Position numbers and translations under genes: made by a program. DNA of 34,234 nucleotides, taken from Granulosicoccus sp. (GTDB lineage: Bacteria > Pseudomonadota > Gammaproteobacteria > Granulosicoccales > Granulosicoccaceae). The stretch spans positions 1 through 34,234 of the forward strand of contig JALZWO010000180.1 of assembly GCA_023300375.1 (NCBI GenBank), given 5' to 3'. Numbering within the stretch: position 1 is the stretch's first letter; each line of letters opens with the position of its first letter. Shown in pieces: positions 22,393 to 33,888 of this stretch. Under the pieces are notes generated by a model that saw only the letters and a list, made by a program, of their open reading frames with translations, had not been told where the DNA came from and made no database searches.

Positions 22393-23193
22393 TTACAACT
22401 GAGGCAATAGTGGCAAAAATAAAGAACGCTGCGCCACACAAACGGTGGTTGGCCCTGTGGGTGTATCGGTGAAGTAAGAAACCGCCAACCCCATAAAAAT
22501 AGAGCTTATACCCACACCCAAAGCAATGATGGCCATGCGCTCGGGCGTATGACTTAGAGGTCGTGCAGCTGCAGCAGGAATAATCAGCATGGCGCTAATC
22601 AGAAGTACACCCACTACTTTAATAGCGATAGCGACCACCAGTGCTAACGCTACGGTAAGCACTAATTGCTCACGTCGTGGGTTCAGGCCACCAGCAGCTG
22701 CAAGGTCAGCACTTATAGTGAGTAACAATAATTTCTGCCAACGCGTAACAATGAGCAAAGTTGCCAACATTGCGCCAATCCACATGATGAGTAAATGCCC
22801 ATCACTAACAGCGAGAATGTCGCCGAACAAATAGGCATTGAGATCAATTCGGTTGTCGTCTAATAGTGACACCGCCACGAGACCAATCGCAAGTAATGAG
22901 TGCGCCAAAACACCCAGCAGAGTATCTATTGCATGACCTCGCCAACTTCAGCTTGAGACTAAGTAGGCCATCGCCATGGCAACCAATATGGTTCCGACAA
23001 AAACAGACTGTGAAAACGCGAGAGACAGTGCGACACCTAGCATTGCTGCATGTGCAGTGGCATCACCAAAGTAGGCCATGCGACGCCAAACTACAAAGCA
23101 GCCCATAAGAGCTGCAGCAACAGCCACTGCAAAACCTGCCAACGCGGCCCGCACGACAAAATCATCAAGCAGGGAGACTATAAAGTTGCTCAC
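22393..23193 (-). pseudogene. znuB: znuB: zinc ABC permease broken by an in-frame TGA
   Basis: The reading frame from GTG at 23193 encodes the N-terminal third of ZnuB (FVVWRRMAYFGDATAHAAMLGVALSL), then stops at a TGA at 22948-22950. The same frame continues at once with GHAIDTLLGVLAHSLLAIGLVAVSL, aligning with the next part of ZnuB, and runs to a normal C-terminal region (VVGVLLISAMLIIPAAAARPL, DTPTGPT). No frameshift is needed; one nonsense change splits the gene into 81- and about 185-codon parts. ZnuB is the membrane channel of the high-affinity zinc importer. The GTG start overlaps the znuC stop (GTGA). Loss of function is expected unless the stop is read through. Confidence 0.9.
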
Positions 23194-23976
23194 TGGTGTT
23201 CATGCCCAGACTGTTGATCTGCAGATTTATGCTCGTGTTCTTGATCGTGATCATGCTTGTGATCATGAACATCGCGATAAAGAGCCAGCGTGCCTTGTGT
23301 GCCTGTGCCAAACAAAGCACGGTATTCAGGTTTGGATGAAACGACATCAGGGGCACCTTCGCAACACACATGTCCACTTAAGCAAATCACCCTGTCAGAG
23401 GCGCTCATAACTACATGCAGTTCATGGCTTACCATCAGAACTGCGCAACCCATATCGTTTCGCAAGTCTTCTATTTGACAATAAAAATCAGCTAATCCTT
23501 GTTGATCCAAGCCTTGAGTGGGTTCATCGAGTATGAGTAAATGGGGGCTATTCAGTGCCGCACGTGCCAACAGCACACGCTGCAACTGGCCTCCAGACAA
23601 TTCCACTATTTGCTTATCAAGCAGATGCTCTATGGAAATCTTCAGACAAATTGTTTGTATGTGCTCGTTAGACACACGATGTGCAATTTCAAAAAAACGC
23701 CTAACAGTCAGCGGCAATATTTTTGTGAGTTCTAGCTTTTGCGACACATAGCCTACCCGCAAACCTGCGACACGCGTAAGCGTGCCAGAGCTTGCATCGA
23801 TGAATGCCAATGAGCACCCTTAGCAGAGTCGATTTACCTGATCCGTTAGGCCCCACAATAGTGACGATTTCACCCGAACGAATACTGAATTCAGTATCGT
23901 GCAATACGCGCTTATTCGCATAGTTGACGCAAAGACCGCTGGTGCTCAGGAGCGAGCCGCCTTCAGTGTGCTGCAT
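23190..23976 (-). pseudogene. znuC: znuC: zinc ABC ATPase with a one-base frameshift
   Basis: The N-terminal part starts at the ATG at 23976 (AGGA about eight bases upstream) and includes Walker A GPNGSGKSTLLRVLIGI. After that the frame is lost. Removing one base (near 23802, an extra C in the minus-strand ATTCATCGAT) joins LIGI to IDASSGTLTRVAGLRVGYVSQ, giving exactly the expected ZnuC spacing. The rest has signature LSGGQLQR, Walker B LLILDEP and switch His in VSHELHVVM. It ends in a His-rich cytosolic tail (HDHKHDHDQEHEH) resembling the metal-binding loop of ZnuA. The intact protein would power zinc import with ZnuB. Confidence 0.9.
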
Positions 23977-24123
23977 AGTGAGGTCCTGTTTACGCCACGT
24001 TGGGGTAAATCGAAGTTTATGCTCACGACAATAATTATCTGCCTGATCCAACGCATGCTTCATGCAATGGCGGTGGTTATGCCGCGCGAAGCCCAAAATA
24101 TCAAGCTGCTCTTTGTGACTCAT
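23977..24123 (-). pseudogene. zur: zur remnant: first ~45 codons of the zinc uptake regulator
   Basis: The frame from 24123 encodes a Fur-family N terminus, HRHCMKHALDQADNYCREH then LRFTPTWRK, matching the first helices of Zur (C-x5-x-R-x-TP-x-R pattern). It then runs directly into the znuC ribosome site and start. About 110 residues holding the DNA-recognition helix, dimerisation domain and zinc ligands are missing, as if deleted cleanly up to znuC. The gene order zur-znuC-znuB divergent from znuA is standard in Pseudomonas-like bacteria, which supports the identification. Confidence 0.75.
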
Positions 24124-24191: not shown

Positions 24192-24932
24192 ATGCTTGCA
24201 TCGCGTTTTATATCTCGCCCAACACAGCTTATTAGGCTACTGCATAATATGCAAACTCTGGCGCCTAACACACCCAAGCTTGCGTATCGAGACAACAGTT
24301 TGTTTACTGACTCACATGATCACGAACACGAGACTGACCACGAAGCTGACCACGACACAAACACGAACGAACACAATTCCGCCATTGACCCCCATGGCTG
24401 GCTAGACCCCAGCAATGCCATTTACTGGGTTGAATTAATAGCCGAACAGCTCACAGCGCTGGATTCGAAAAACGCCAACAACTACCGTTCAAATGCGGCA
24501 GCAGCTAAACAGCAACTAAAACAGCTGCAACACAAGGTAGCCCAACAACTGGAGTCATTATCGGACAAACCCTTTGTCGTCTTCCATGATAGTTATCACT
24601 ACTTTGAAGACAGGTTCAATTTATACGTTACTGCTGCTATCACACTGAGTGACGCTGACCTACCCAGTATCAGGCAATTAAATTCATTACGCTCACTACT
24701 CGATAAACACACTGATGTGTGCGTATTTACTGAACCACAATTCAGCGATAAGCTTGTACGCTCATTAACCCGCGATCTGGATGTTAGCATTGCAGAATTA
24801 GACCCGCTGGGTTCACGACTTGCTAAGGGATCAGACCTCTACACTCGCACCATTGAGCAGCTGAGCAACACACTTGCAACATGCTTAGAAGCACCATCAA
24901 ACCACTCGTCTAGACATCAAAGAGCGGTATAA
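24192..24932 (+). pseudogene. znuA: znuA remnant: zinc-binding protein lacking its N terminus
   Basis: The 246-codon frame carries the C-terminal two thirds of ZnuA: QTLAPNTPKLA, a His/Asp-rich loop (HDHEHETDHEADHD), DPHGWLDPSNAIYWVELIAEQL (zinc ligand His), VFHDSYHYFEDRFNL (second His) and VFTEPQFSDKL...ELDPLG (acidic ligand). The signal peptide and first ~100 residues, including the first zinc ligand, are absent. The start of the frame (ASRFISRPTQLIRLLHN) looks neither like a signal peptide nor like ZnuA. There is no good ribosome site at the ATG at 24192. Without export it cannot serve as a periplasmic binding protein, so I call it a 5'-truncated pseudogene. Confidence 0.82.
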
Positions 24933-28978: not shown

Positions 28979-30922
28979 ATGCAAACAAATCCAAGCTTAC
29001 AAACTAATCATTCTGCTGAAATTGATGCGCCGACGCCGACCCCCGTCAACGAGGTGACGTCAACTAGTCAAAAATTGCGCACACGCGTCAAAGAATTAGA
29101 AAGTAACAACAAACAAAGCAAACTCGAAGAGATCACTGCTAAACATAAACTGGCAGAGATGCTGGCGTCGTACAAAGCGCTTAAAATAAAGAATGTAGAG
29201 CTTAAGGCACTGACGGATGAGCAGCAATCCAGAGATAGAAGATATCGAGAATTATTTGATTTAGCACCCGTGGGCTACCTGTCTGTTACTCCTGAATGCA
29301 TCATCAAAGAGGCCAATCTTGCAGCTCGATATTTTTTGAGATCAGTAGGAGCGCAAACTGTTGGTAGGTCGTTAGCTGAGTATATATCGGCTGACGATAT
29401 GGACCGTTTGCAACACCACTTGCTAACCAAAGTTAGCTCACACCTGTCAGGCAGAATAGAGCTCGACATTCGCTTAGCTGATGGAACGTCGCGCCCGGTA
29501 ATGCTGATGATAAGCAACATTCGTGGCCGAAGATCACTTGAGCAATGTTTCCAAGTGATGATAGTTGACATAAGCGATTACATCGAGAGAGAAAGGCGTT
29601 TACGTAATGCAAAAGATTTTCTGGAGGAAATGGCCTTACATGATTCTTTAACTCGACTACCCAATAGAACACTGTTCCGTGATCGTTTACAACAACTCAT
29701 AGATCAACGTGTGTCAAATAACGCGCGCATAGCGGTCATATACATTGATCTGGATGGTTTTAAACCTATCAATGACACTCTGGGTCATGCAGCTGGTGAT
29801 GTTGTGCTGCAAGCAATCTCGAATAAGGTTCGTCATATGCTAAACCCCGGCGATACCATGGCTCGCTTGGGCGGTGACGAATTTGCCATCATTATGAACA
29901 ATCCTGCTGATACTCAAAGTGCTCTACGGTATGCTCAGGCGATAGCTGACCTTATTCGTGACCCTATCAACATAGATGAGGCAGTGGTTAGTATCAGTAG
30001 CAGCATAGGTGTCAGTATGTTCCCTGAGCATGCACAAAATTTTGATGCCTTGGTTAAAGGCGCTGACGCCTCTATGTATCGTGCAAAACAAGCAGGTAAA
30101 GATAGAGTTGTATTGTTTGCAAAAAAATCTTTTGATCATATTCACAGACACTCTGTACTTGAAACAAGCCTGCCACACGCAGTTAACAAAGATCAATTGA
30201 TTTTGCATTATCAGCCTATCTATTGTGCTCGAACCAAAAATATTAGCTCATTGGAGGCATTGGTGCGCTGGCAACATCCAACTCTGGGCACTGTGATGCC
30301 TGGCGAATTCATACCGATAGCTGAAAAGACAGATCACATCGTCAACATCGGCGACTGGGTACTTGATAAGGCCTGTCGTCAAGCAAACATCTGGAAAAAC
30401 ATGGGTTTTAACATACCTATTGCCATCAATGTGTCTGGTAGACAACTGCTAAAAGAAAATTTCGCAGAAAAAATGCAATCTCGTTTGCAACAACACAGTC
30501 TTTCAGAGCAGGCTATAGAATTTGAGATCACAGAAACAACTGTACTGATCGATCATGCCCACATAGAACATTCGTTGCAAGCACTCAGTAAAGCCGGTCA
30601 TCTTCTAACGATAGATGATTTTGGAACTGGCAGTTCTTCACTTAGCCGCTTAGTCAATCTACCAATCTCTCGAATTAAAATTGACCAGATGTTTACTAAA
30701 AACTTAGTGAGCAATGCTCCAATGAGATCATTGATTACATCAATAGTGCACATGGCCCATCAACTCAATCTAGAGGTCATTGCTGAGGGTGTTGAACTGG
30801 GCGAACAAGTGGACTTCTTGCTTGCAAGCCAGTGTAATGCCATGCAAGGTTATTGGTTCAGCAAAGCTGCAGACGCGGTGCAGATCACTGAAAAGCTACA
30901 ATCGGAAGCGCTGGAGGTTTAG
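28979..30922 (+). CDS. PAS-GGDEF-EAL cyclic-di-GMP signalling protein
   Basis: A 647-aa soluble protein. After a low-complexity Thr/Pro N terminus comes a coiled coil (about 28-80), a PAS domain (about 85-210, YRELFDLAPVGYLSVT...), a GGDEF domain (DSLTRLPNRTLFRDRL, then RLGGDEF near residue 297) and an EAL domain (LEALVRW near 426). The diguanylate cyclase motif GGDEF is canonical. The EAL domain has the expected catalytic set: EALVRW, AINVSGRQL, FEITET, TIDDFGTGSSSL, RIKIDQMF, IAEGVE and MQGYWFSKA, so c-di-GMP phosphodiesterase activity is likely. Both activities may be balanced by the PAS domain. No membrane segment is seen. It overlaps the convergent CheB/CheR gene by four bases at its stop. 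Confidence 0.93.
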   Translation: MQTNPSLQTNHSAEIDAPTPTPVNEVTSTSQKLRTRVKELESNNKQSKLEEITAKHKLAEMLASYKALKIKNVELKALTDEQQSRDRRYRELFDLAPVGYLSVTPECIIKEANLAARYFLRSVGAQTVGRSLAEYISADDMDRLQHHLLTKVSSHLSGRIELDIRLADGTSRPVMLMISNIRGRRSLEQCFQVMIVDISDYIERERRLRNAKDFLEEMALHDSLTRLPNRTLFRDRLQQLIDQRVSNNARIAVIYIDLDGFKPINDTLGHAAGDVVLQAISNKVRHMLNPGDTMARLGGDEFAIIMNNPADTQSALRYAQAIADLIRDPINIDEAVVSISSSIGVSMFPEHAQNFDALVKGADASMYRAKQAGKDRVVLFAKKSFDHIHRHSVLETSLPHAVNKDQLILHYQPIYCARTKNISSLEALVRWQHPTLGTVMPGEFIPIAEKTDHIVNIGDWVLDKACRQANIWKNMGFNIPIAINVSGRQLLKENFAEKMQSRLQQHSLSEQAIEFEITETTVLIDHAHIEHSLQALSKAGHLLTIDDFGTGSSSLSRLVNLPISRIKIDQMFTKNLVSNAPMRSLITSIVHMAHQLNLEVIAEGVELGEQVDFLLASQCNAMQGYWFSKAADAVQITEKLQSEALEV

Positions 30923-33888
30923 TCGGATGAATCGAGCTCCAACGCTTTCACTTGATCGATAGTGACGACAGCGCCATATCGAAACATCAACAATACGCCC
31001 TGAGCTAAGCCTCCCCCGGCTTTATACGGATGGATGCCGATATTCAACAAGCTTCCGTCTTGGCCAATATCGCGGCTAATTGATGTGCCTGTTGACAACA
31101 CTCTTTTCATATCTTGATTCAGATCTGCATAGTGCAGCGACTGCGCCAAATCCGAGAATGGTCTTCCAACATCGGATGGCAAGATATTAACGGTATTAGT
31201 TGCCACATCTGTGTAACGTCGAATTCTAAGGTCTGAATCTAGAAAAATGACTCCTAGCTTTGTGCTATTAAGTAGATTATCCAGATCCTGATTAAGATCT
31301 GATAACTCATGAATCTTCGTCTGATATTCAAAATTTACTGTGTACAACTCCTCGTTTACCGACTGAAGCTCTTCGTTTGTGCTTTGAAGTTCCTCATTTG
31401 CAGCGGATAGTTGCTCGTTGACAGAATTTTGTTCGTCATCTCGGCTTTCCAGATCATTAATAGCCGCACGTAATGCATTTTTCGTTTCGATTAACTCATC
31501 GCGTAATCCATCAGCTTCTAGACCAGTTTCTGAAGTGGCTTGACTCGATACCGATTGATCTTGCTGAACAATAGACAAAATGACCAGAGCATTCAACATT
31601 GAATTATCCTGTGTACTGGGCACAATCTCAATATCGATAAGCTTTTGCAGCTGACCTGACGGCACACACGCAATGCGCCGTTGAACAACGCGCGTGTGTT
31701 CCTTGAATGCACGAGACAACGCAAAAGATAGAGTTGAGCGTAAGGCCTCAGGGACCATTTTCACAATATCTAGCGTGGGTTCCCCCTGACTGACTTGTAG
31801 TAGGCCACCAGGGTCAGAAATCACAGTGAGCACTGACCGAGACTCATCTACCAGTATGTTTGTATTGCCAGTGGACTGTGCCATGGCATCGAGAGACCAC
31901 TCAACCAATTGATTATCATTCGCAGCAGGCTTGCGCTGTGCCAACTCAGAATGATCAGTGACTAGCTTGGGGCCTTCACGTAAACGCTGAGCACTCAAGT
32001 GCAAGGGTAGACGCAAGTTCCTTAGTTTCTTGAACAAATTCCATTCTCTATGAATGGGATAAAATTCGCTCTGCAAACTACCCAGTGTTTCGGAAGGTCC
32101 GAGCAACAGCATGCCATTTACGTTCAACGCAAAATGCAGCATCTTTATGGCCAATTGTTGCAAGTCAGGCTGCATATAAATGAGTACGTTGCGGCACGTG
32201 ACAAGATGCATACGAGTGAACGGCGTATTTTTAATAAAGTTGTGTGGCGCAAAAATAACGTTCTCACGTATCTCTCGCGATATCGTGAATCCTTCAGATT
32301 TCTTCGTAAAGAAACGCGCAATACGCTCTTCGCTGACAGAATCCATGGCTCGTTCCGCGTAAACCCCGGAGCTAGCGAAGGCCAAAGCCTTTCTTTCGAT
32401 GTCTGTAGCGTAAATTTTGAAATTAATGTTTTTAGGTTGATTTTCTAACAGTTCAACCAGTAACATCGCAAGCGTATAGACCTCCTGGCCCGTCGCACAG
32501 GCAGTCACCCAGACGCGGTAGGTGTCTCCTGATTTTAAATCTTTTTCAATTTGCCGTTCAATCGAACGTCCTAATTTTTCCCAGGCATCGGGGTCCCGAA
32601 AGAAGCTAGTGACTGTGATCAAAATGTCATCACGCAAATTCGCGCGTTCAAGCTCATTGTCTTGCAAGTGCTTGATATATTGTTCAGTAGAAGAGATACC
32701 GCAAATAACCCTGCGTCGTTCTATTCTACGAAACAATGTTTCATCCTTGTACTGAGAAAAATCGATTTCGTCACTCTCTATGATGTCCACTACCGTGGAG
32801 ATATAGCGCATTCGATCATCGGGTCTGGGCATTGACACACTAAGCAGATAGTCACTGCCTAAACTATTCAAAAATTCTGCAATATCTATGGGCGCAAGAA
32901 TTTGATGAACAATACCTGTATCTATTGTCGACTGAGGCATACCATCAAACTCTGATGACTCTACGCTCTGCGATAGCACAACGCCTCCCGACTCGTGGAC
33001 AATTTTACAACCTCGCGAGCCATCGCTACCAGTACCTGATAAAACAACTGCTATAGCTCTATCTCCGTATTCACGTGCTACGGACCTAAAACAGATATCT
33101 AACGGAAATTGAGGCCCTCGGCCCAATCGACTTTGCTCTTGTAACGTGATGGCGCCTTTTTCTACTCCTAGATTATTTCCAGGTGGGATGACATAAATAT
33201 TGCCAGCCTTTATCATTTCGCCGTTTTTTGCGGTATGCACGTTCAACTCGGTATCTCGCTGCAGAATCATATCCATGACTGTTTCTGTCTTTGGCGAAAA
33301 ATGTTGCACTACGATGAACGCTGCGTTTAATTCAGGCTTGAGCATTTTAACGATAGACTGCAGCGGCGCCATACCTCCTGCTGAAGCACCAAGGACTACG
33401 ATGTAAGGAGGAGCGGTTTGGTCATTGGCAGTTGAATCCATAAGATCAGTGGAAGCATGCGATTCCCTTCGTCCGGAAAGTTGATCGACCATGTCTATAA
33501 GGATACGTCTAGATTCCACCTCATCAAATACAGCACTGGATGAGGAAACCATTACGTCCTCTATAAGGTCCTGTATGCGAATGTCTGGCAGGTGAGATTC
33601 TGAGACACTCAGCAATTGAAAACTGTTGAACCTCCTGGATTCGATATTTCCAAGCTTTAATATGTGCATAGCTGAGGTATGCGCATTCGTTTCTATGTCA
33701 GAGATCAAATCATTGACAGCGTTTTCTGGGCCTTCCAGATATTGGAACAATGCATTCTTGTTGCAGCTGAGGTAGCCGGTGATTCCAGAGCTGCGGAGTT
33801 TTTCAATTCTAGATTCATAGTGTTCGCTTACGATTACGTCGTAAGGAGTCTTGTTAGTAATAAATGTACAAGCTATGGCTATCATCAC
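30919..33888 (-). CDS. BLUF-like-CheB-CheR-coiled-coil-PAS fusion protein
   Basis: A 989-aa protein. Residues ~2-95 resemble a BLUF domain (GITGYL, ALFQYLEGPENAV, ESRRFNSFQLL). A CheB methylesterase domain (about 160-345) follows with its triad: Ser169 in GASAGG, His196 in VVQHFSP, Asp289 in SGTGSDG. The CheR methyltransferase domain (about 365-625) has FSQYKDETLFRRIERR, TSFFRD, ATDIERKAL and CRNVLIYM, but motif I reads ACATGQEVY. Then come a long linker, the NEELQSTNEELQSVNEELYTV coiled coil and a C-terminal PAS (about 880-975, LGVIFLDSDLRIRRYT). There is no receiver domain. CheB/CheR-PAS fusions usually act with sensor kinases; the kinase gene end lies 121 bases upstream on the same strand. 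The GTG at 33888 has GGAAG eight bases upstream; ATG at 33885 is the alternative. Confidence 0.88.
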   Translation of the reverse strand: MMIAIACTFITNKTPYDVIVSEHYESRIEKLRSSGITGYLSCNKNALFQYLEGPENAVNDLISDIETNAHTSAMHILKLGNIESRRFNSFQLLSVSESHLPDIRIQDLIEDVMVSSSSAVFDEVESRRILIDMVDQLSGRRESHASTDLMDSTANDQTAPPYIVVLGASAGGMAPLQSIVKMLKPELNAAFIVVQHFSPKTETVMDMILQRDTELNVHTAKNGEMIKAGNIYVIPPGNNLGVEKGAITLQEQSRLGRGPQFPLDICFRSVAREYGDRAIAVVLSGTGSDGSRGCKIVHESGGVVLSQSVESSEFDGMPQSTIDTGIVHQILAPIDIAEFLNSLGSDYLLSVSMPRPDDRMRYISTVVDIIESDEIDFSQYKDETLFRRIERRRVICGISSTEQYIKHLQDNELERANLRDDILITVTSFFRDPDAWEKLGRSIERQIEKDLKSGDTYRVWVTACATGQEVYTLAMLLVELLENQPKNINFKIYATDIERKALAFASSGVYAERAMDSVSEERIARFFTKKSEGFTISREIRENVIFAPHNFIKNTPFTRMHLVTCRNVLIYMQPDLQQLAIKMLHFALNVNGMLLLGPSETLGSLQSEFYPIHREWNLFKKLRNLRLPLHLSAQRLREGPKLVTDHSELAQRKPAANDNQLVEWSLDAMAQSTGNTNILVDESRSVLTVISDPGGLLQVSQGEPTLDIVKMVPEALRSTLSFALSRAFKEHTRVVQRRIACVPSGQLQKLIDIEIVPSTQDNSMLNALVILSIVQQDQSVSSQATSETGLEADGLRDELIETKNALRAAINDLESRDDEQNSVNEQLSAANEELQSTNEELQSVNEELYTVNFEYQTKIHELSDLNQDLDNLLNSTKLGVIFLDSDLRIRRYTDVATNTVNILPSDVGRPFSDLAQSLHYADLNQDMKRVLSTGTSISRDIGQDGSLLNIGIHPYKAGGGLAQGVLLMFRYGAVVTIDQVKALELDSSD

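Follow-up and report, generated by a model that had tools for sequence, protein, structure and literature searches.

A BLUF-derived domain that has probably lost classic light switching, in a CheB-CheR-PAS protein of Granulosicoccus whose relatives are encoded beside kaiBC

Why should a protein built of chemotaxis-type methylesterase and methyltransferase domains carry at its N-terminus a BLUF-like domain in which the residues of classic blue-light chemistry are replaced? The question is raised by a gene in a stretch of 34,234 nucleotides (the window), which is the entire contig C180 of a genome (G000; 4.58 Mb in 247 contigs) of the marine bacterium Granulosicoccus. The open reading frame at 30919..33888, for which the first-pass annotation gave no strand, lies on the minus strand and encodes 989 aa counted from GTG 33888. 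The ATG at 33885, which is also the start in relatives, is more likely to be the start codon than this GTG. Frame and Pfam-A matches confirmed that the frame is real and encodes a BLUF-CheB-CheR-PAS protein, with BLUF at residues 31-91, CheB at 164-339, CheR_N and CheR at 375-614 and PAS_10 at 869-969. The BLUF-derived domain itself was delimited by the Pfam match and by alignments to residues 2-95 (33604..33885, minus strand, as are all following parts). It is joined by a helical linker (PDIRIQDLIEDVM...ESRR, residues ~100-140; 33469..33591) to the CheB methylesterase domain (32872..33399; PF01339, 168 bits). The CheR_N and CheR methyltransferase domains (32047..32766; PF03705 at residues 375-411 and PF01739 at 426-614, the CheR match scoring 165.8 bits) follow. 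A long helix with NEELQSTNEELQSVNEEL (31264..31515), a probable coiled coil judging by its sequence and by a helix at residues 791-874 in a low-confidence model, leads into the PAS_10 domain (30982..31284; PF13596, 63 bits). The full-length structure model was poor (mean pLDDT 42.9), and the linker helices are predicted in a low-confidence model (mean pLDDT 56.9). Conservation within the protein is lowest in the linker when this is taken as far as residue 160, where the window shares 62% identity with G008, its nearest relative.

The relationship to BLUF domains held up when checked with profiles. PF04940 matched residues 31-91 with an E-value of 4.4e-11 and 43.2 bits, above the cut-off of 25, and the motifs GITGYL, FQYLEGPENAV (with Gln49) and ESRRF are present as the first-pass annotation described them. 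Sequence matches in the PDB that are named BLUF or photoreceptor include AppA, BlrB, BlrP1 and Slr1694. The 12 best Foldseek matches of the low-confidence domain model (mean pLDDT 56.9) were all BLUF proteins, the best being Tll0078 and AppA, at TM scores of ~0.4-0.5 and with designed ferredoxin folds close behind. The profile match starts at residue 31 and leaves out the first strand of the domain. A BLUF first strand hidden upstream of the GTG was considered and rejected: no BLUF-like sequence is present in the 17 residues back to the preceding in-frame stop, and translation of the relatives begins at what is here the second codon, ATG.

Key residues were placed by aligning the BLUF domains of nine fusions and 23 relatives, an alignment from which 4 of 27 canonical loci are absent because the search motif missed them, and by using phmmer to align relatives with AppA and BlrB. 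The photoactive Tyr had been assigned by hand to Thr8. This proved wrong: the phmmer and family alignments rule out Thr8 and put Cys7 at the Tyr site, and in relative G007 phmmer placed a Cys opposite the AppA Tyr, in agreement with the family alignments. The other assignments were confirmed, with Leu31 at the Asn site and Phe90 and Leu92 in place of the Trp and Met of the last strand. Gln49 aligns with the conserved BLUF Gln. An alignment that restores the Tyr and the Asn was looked for, and neither residue was restored. Apart from the misplaced Thr8, the earlier reading of BLUF kinship, lost photochemistry residues and rare architecture therefore stands.

To place Cys7 among other BLUF domains, we used a profile alignment of 110 distinct domains, four of them gapped at the Tyr column. 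The remaining 106 have Tyr in 97 cases, Cys in seven and Phe in two; since 60 of 99 class-wide matches were taken, for the most part the strongest and the weakest ones, 97/106 describes a non-random sample. All seven Cys domains belong to BLUF-CheR fusions of Granulosicoccus, namely those of the window (G000), G008, G026, G019, G012, G007 and G024 (hereafter the Cys clade). The Gln is kept in 7/7 of them, the Asn in 4/7 and the Trp and Met in 5/7. The DxRH motif, on which the first-pass annotation was silent, is kept in 25/25 rows outside the clade versus two of the seven inside it (G012 and G007), and reads NxHT in the window and G008. These two have lost the Asn, Trp, Met and DxRH besides the Tyr. 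The simplest reading of this pattern is stepwise loss, in which the Tyr would have gone first and other contacts later, furthest in the sublineage of the window. Degenerate BLUF domains also occur outside the Cys clade: elsewhere in the alignment, four other rows of the 110 have no Tyr or no Gln. Genome G292 has nine BLUF matches (L120-L127), two of them with Phe for the Tyr and Ser/Thr for the Gln, and may hold another set of eroded BLUF domains. Two further domains (L131 and L132, of G355 and G276) have Gly for the conserved Gln and keep the Tyr. The window's own genome encodes a second BLUF protein (L069, 4913-6058, plus strand; 77.5 bits), a frame of 382 aa in which Pfam finds no further domain.

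Judging by these residues, the window protein has very probably lost light switching of the classic BLUF kind. Photoactivation is reported to be abolished by mutation of the Tyr or the Gln, the red shift being lost in Tyr mutants, and to survive replacement of the Asn (PMC5899715). A missing Asn is therefore no argument against photoactivity when taken by itself. In BlsA, changes of Tyr, Gln and Trp are reported to disturb light-regulated motility and solubility (PMC6695109). BlsA was also considered as a natural photoreceptor without the Asn; this argument was dropped because Phe32, likened in that report to the AppA His and to a residue at the flavin C2 carbonyl, is probably not at the Asn position (PMC6695109). 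Flavin binding by the window domain is probably weak or absent, and the residue changes by themselves do not prove the loss of FAD.

Comparison of the window with G008 shows that purifying selection acts on the eroded domain. In the first 100 codons of this pair, pN was 0.098 and pS 0.775, with synonymous sites saturated, and the BLUF-like domains of G019 and G012 gave a dN/dS of 0.033. The domain of G024, in a protein without CheB, is under weaker constraint (dN/dS 0.117 against G012 and 0.229 against G019). For the most part, there is no sign that the domain is dead weight.

How rare is the fusion, and where does it come from? Among 48 genomes of the family, BLUF fused to CheR was found in nine, comprising the seven of the Cys clade (in G024 without CheB) and two with a canonical BLUF domain (G011 and G035) that keep every key BLUF residue. 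In a sample of 370 genomes of the class, 99 BLUF matches were found in 53 genomes. Only two of the 99 lie in frames longer than 450 aa, that of the window and a GGDEF-EAL protein in G269, with frames cut by contig ends possible besides. The window thus holds the only BLUF-CheB-CheR fusion of that sample, contig-end-cut frames aside, in keeping with the unusual architecture noted at first. The fusion of G024 (L059, 5692-7953, minus strand) reads BLUF-CheR-PAS, with CheB and CheR_N missing in frame. A search of titles and abstract openings, with few subscription papers among them, for BLUF-CheB/CheR, KaiC-BLUF and Tyr-less BLUF returned no account of such a protein or arrangement. A tree of 56 CheB-CheR regions, rooted at the midpoint only and leaving out G024, which has no CheB, placed six rows of the Cys clade, the G011 and G035 fusions and the BLUF-less protein of G025 in one group (support 100/99). 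This group adjoins G037, a CheB-CheR-PAS-HK protein, and G437. A single origin of the BLUF fusion is possible from this tree. As the BLUF-less G025 protein falls with the fusions of G011 and G035, either two gains or a single gain and a loss would explain the pattern. In G042, a BLUF-kinase-receiver gene that keeps the Tyr lies close to a CheB-CheR-PAS gene (L064, 4006-10008, minus strand). In G039, too, a BLUF frame lies near a CheR frame, and G047 has both kinds of frame on the same contig.

The genes around the fusion point to a signalling neighbourhood. Upstream, at the edge of the window, lies the C-terminal end of a histidine kinase cut by the end of the contig (34010..34234, minus strand; HATPase_c, 60.5 bits). 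On the other side, a convergent PAS-GGDEF-EAL gene (28979..30922, plus strand) overlaps the stop of the fusion by four bases. Such a facing gene, with GGDEF and EAL motifs, adjoins both the Cys-type and the canonical fusions, and the CheB-CheR genes of G037 and G437 both face a GGDEF-EAL gene as well. What lies upstream of the kinase was read in relatives. In G008, G026 and G019, the full row consists of genes for a response regulator (RR), KaiB, KaiC and a PAS histidine kinase followed by the fusion, all in one direction, with the GGDEF-EAL gene facing. G012 has the same RR-KaiB-KaiC-PAS-HK-fusion row, its KaiB located by a KaiB search, and the contig of G007 starts inside kaiC. The order kaiC-kinase-fusion is thus found in five genomes besides that of the window. 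In the latter, KaiC (91% identical to that of G008) and KaiB are encoded on a contig of 3996 bases (C69) that ends inside a kinase. Residues 1-202 of the G008 kinase match C69 and residues 275-361 match the window, with no overlap and 72 residues missing between them. Because the two contigs do not overlap, linkage of kaiBC to the fusion in this genome is inferred by synteny only. The gap between the kinase stop and the fusion ATG is 69-124 bases, leaving room for a separate promoter of the fusion; an alignment of this kinase-fusion intergenic stretch gave nothing convincing. Elsewhere in the window, an ABC transporter ATPase is split over two overlapping frames (23190-24123, minus strand; profile positions 1-36 and 58-137) next to a ZnuA-like gene (24192-24932, plus strand), which reflects either a frameshift or an assembly error.

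The Kai genes are not a constant companion of the fusion. KaiC was found in six of the 48 family genomes (E up to 1e-30) and KaiB in five, and the six coincide fully with the genomes that encode a Cys-type fusion containing CheB. This co-occurrence gave a Fisher p of 5.7e-7 with kinship and physical linkage ignored; as the genomes are close relatives and the genes physically linked, it does not amount to six independent events. G024, G011 and G035 had no KaiC at E up to 1e-30, and absences in G011 and G007 are weak, since these genomes are only 63% and 68% complete. The canonical fusions of G011 and G035 have no kai gene upstream and keep the facing GGDEF-EAL gene. In G024, the RR-KaiB-KaiC-kinase row is absent and genes like those upstream of the row in G012 are present. 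Gain of the Kai genes in the Cys clade and loss in the others are both possible. Because G024 has a Cys-type BLUF-like domain with neither CheB nor KaiC, the domain does not strictly need KaiBC. In 369 genomes, 22 KaiC matches were found; in the seven regions that hold the nine best outside G000, all from other gammaproteobacteria, a BLUF- or CheB-like frame was present in 0/7. In G254, a stand-alone CheR and a hybrid kinase lie beside kaiB-kaiC (L170, 5937-12488, minus strand).

The KaiC of G008 passes the NCBIfam cut-off for circadian KaiC (634 bits versus 546) and has two PF06745 stretches. When aligned to a KaiC of known structure, 6/6 of the family's KaiC proteins show the adjacent Ser/Thr phosphosites in the motif HIST. 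Their first Walker A motif is altered to GTAGS[A/S]KT in 6/6 (L142, 604-2145, minus strand; L054, 1605-3137, plus strand; and four more genes) and the second is intact. GSAKT is also found in 3/8 other gammaproteobacterial KaiC rows, the other five having GSGKT. The KaiB of G000 scores 77.9 bits against a Pfam cut-off of 27, and falls below the NCBIfam equivalog cut-off for circadian KaiB (68.8 versus 145.3 bits).

Collectively, these results suggest, with a probability that we put at about one half, that the domain is a former light input which no longer performs classic BLUF photochemistry and which, in a kinase/c-di-GMP pathway linked to Kai, may now take in a signal other than light or serve for docking. 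The ancestor would have been a photoactive BLUF-CheB-CheR-PAS regulator, whose photochemical Tyr would have been replaced by Cys in one Granulosicoccus lineage. In the sublineage of the window, the Asn, Trp, Met and DxRH would then have gone too, and with them very probably classic light switching and perhaps flavin binding. Selection would have retained the domain for input or docking, its effect on the CheB, CheR and PAS parts passing via the helical linker. Along with the PAS histidine kinase and the response regulator encoded nearby, the protein would work in a KaiB-KaiC pathway. The output is probably c-di-GMP, by way of the facing GGDEF-EAL protein, whose gene has both the GGDEF and the EAL motifs. 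Sensing of something other than light, as first suggested, is a plausible proposal, and the two leading candidates for the input would be a redox signal via Cys7 and binding of KaiB/KaiC or the kinase. A narrower version is tentative and somewhat doubtful. It holds that the domain now feeds a KaiBC timing pathway independently of light, perhaps by thiol redox or by docking to KaiB/KaiC, and that a clock-type module replaced direct light sensing in the control of a CheB-CheR/c-di-GMP output. That the light switch would have been lost in the very lineage whose cluster has KaiBC and the accompanying kinase is part of this version, and is held just as tentatively. Bacteriochlorophyll and puf genes are reported in kelp-associated Granulosicoccus (PMC9238374), so that daily light could matter to these bacteria.

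Other explanations weigh the same residues differently. There is a modest chance that FAD is still bound in a non-classical flavin sensor, with Cys in place of Tyr and with flavin/thiol redox or Trp photoreduction replacing the Tyr-Gln switch. Such a sensor would account for a Cys that is invariant in 7/7 members and for the pocket residues that persist across the clade (Gln in 7/7, Trp and Met in 5/7, Asn in 4/7, DxRH in 2/7), and the Asn appears to be dispensable for photoactivity in any case (PMC5899715). However, in G008 as in the window, Asn, Trp, Met and DxRH are all gone, as would be expected of flavin contacts that are no longer needed, and the Cys side chain, being shorter than that of Tyr, would probably lie far from the flavin. 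It is very improbable that the protein is still a classic blue-light receptor with another residue in place of the Tyr. Gln49 is kept, Tyr16 and Tyr24 are near in sequence and the related fusions of G011 and G035 have all key residues, yet the photoactive Tyr is matched in the alignment by neither Tyr16 nor Tyr24, the site lacks a Tyr even in those clade members whose pocket is best kept, and four further contact positions are altered in the window.

Two more explanations question whether the domain or its neighbours matter at all. The domain could be vestigial and in decay, serving only the solubility or dimerization of the fusion and giving no signal of its own, as the stepwise loss of key residues, the lower BLUF scores of G000 and G008 (45-47 bits versus 63-92 in the other seven fusions) and the weaker constraint on the G024 domain might indicate. 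We consider this unlikely, given the strong purifying selection measured for window/G008 (pN 0.098, pS 0.775) and G019/G012 (dN/dS 0.033) and a linker start, PDIRIQDLIEDVM, that is identical in 6/7 members of the Cys clade, G024 being the exception. It is quite improbable that the protein is an ordinary pair of chemotaxis adaptation enzymes with a sensor domain, its CheB and CheR acting on chemoreceptors and its Kai neighbours incidental. Chemotaxis genes are reported in kelp-associated Granulosicoccus (PMC9238374), and both enzyme domains have the expected motifs. In CheB, the Ser in GASAGG, the His in QHF and the Asp in GTGSDG are present and invariant in four aligned sequences; we take these to be the catalytic triad. 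Both domains nevertheless fall well below the chemotaxis-specific NCBIfam cut-offs (119.9 versus 293 bits for CheB and 93.1 versus 435 for the CheR equivalog), no CheA or chemoreceptor was found among the ten window ORFs scanned, further CheB- and CheR-like genes are present elsewhere in the genome, and the kaiC-kinase-fusion order recurs in five other genomes.

Beyond the first-pass annotation, the analysis adds the KaiBC-kinase neighbourhood in relatives, the partner GGDEF-EAL gene and the canonical-BLUF fusions. The fusions form a natural series, from the canonical G011 and G035 through the well-kept Cys-type domains of G007 and G012 to the eroded ones of the window and G008, with G024 as a member that has neither CheB nor KaiC. 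Given these living intermediates and the Kai-kinase neighbourhood, a non-light role of a former photoreceptor beside a Kai system is directly testable.

Comparison with known systems places the locus between several families. Outside cyanobacteria, kaiBC are reported usually to adjoin a histidine kinase or a GGDEF/EAL gene, and kaiB-kaiC with either of these directly downstream has been described (PMC3164672). The Granulosicoccus row shares kaiB-kaiC and the downstream histidine kinase with these clusters, whereas a BLUF-derived CheB-CheR-PAS gene after the kinase goes unmentioned in the available text of that study (PMC3164672). With the BLUF domains of AppA, PixD/Slr1694, BlrB, Tll0078 and BlrP1, the window domain shares the HMM match, the framework motifs and the conserved Gln; it differs in having no Tyr, Asn, Trp/Met or DxRH and in its outputs, CheB-CheR-PAS. 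The cyanobacterial clock kinase/phosphatase CikA, a bacteriophytochrome-like protein without BLUF, CheB or CheR, is a partial parallel and in kind only. The pseudoreceiver of this signalling protein is reported to bind oxidized quinones and then to leave the KaiBC complex (PMC13421787). In the order of CheB, CheR and PAS_10, the window protein is the same as the CheB-CheR-PAS(-HK) fusions with which it groups in the tree, but it adds the N-terminal BLUF-derived domain, and its kinase is encoded by a separate upstream gene.
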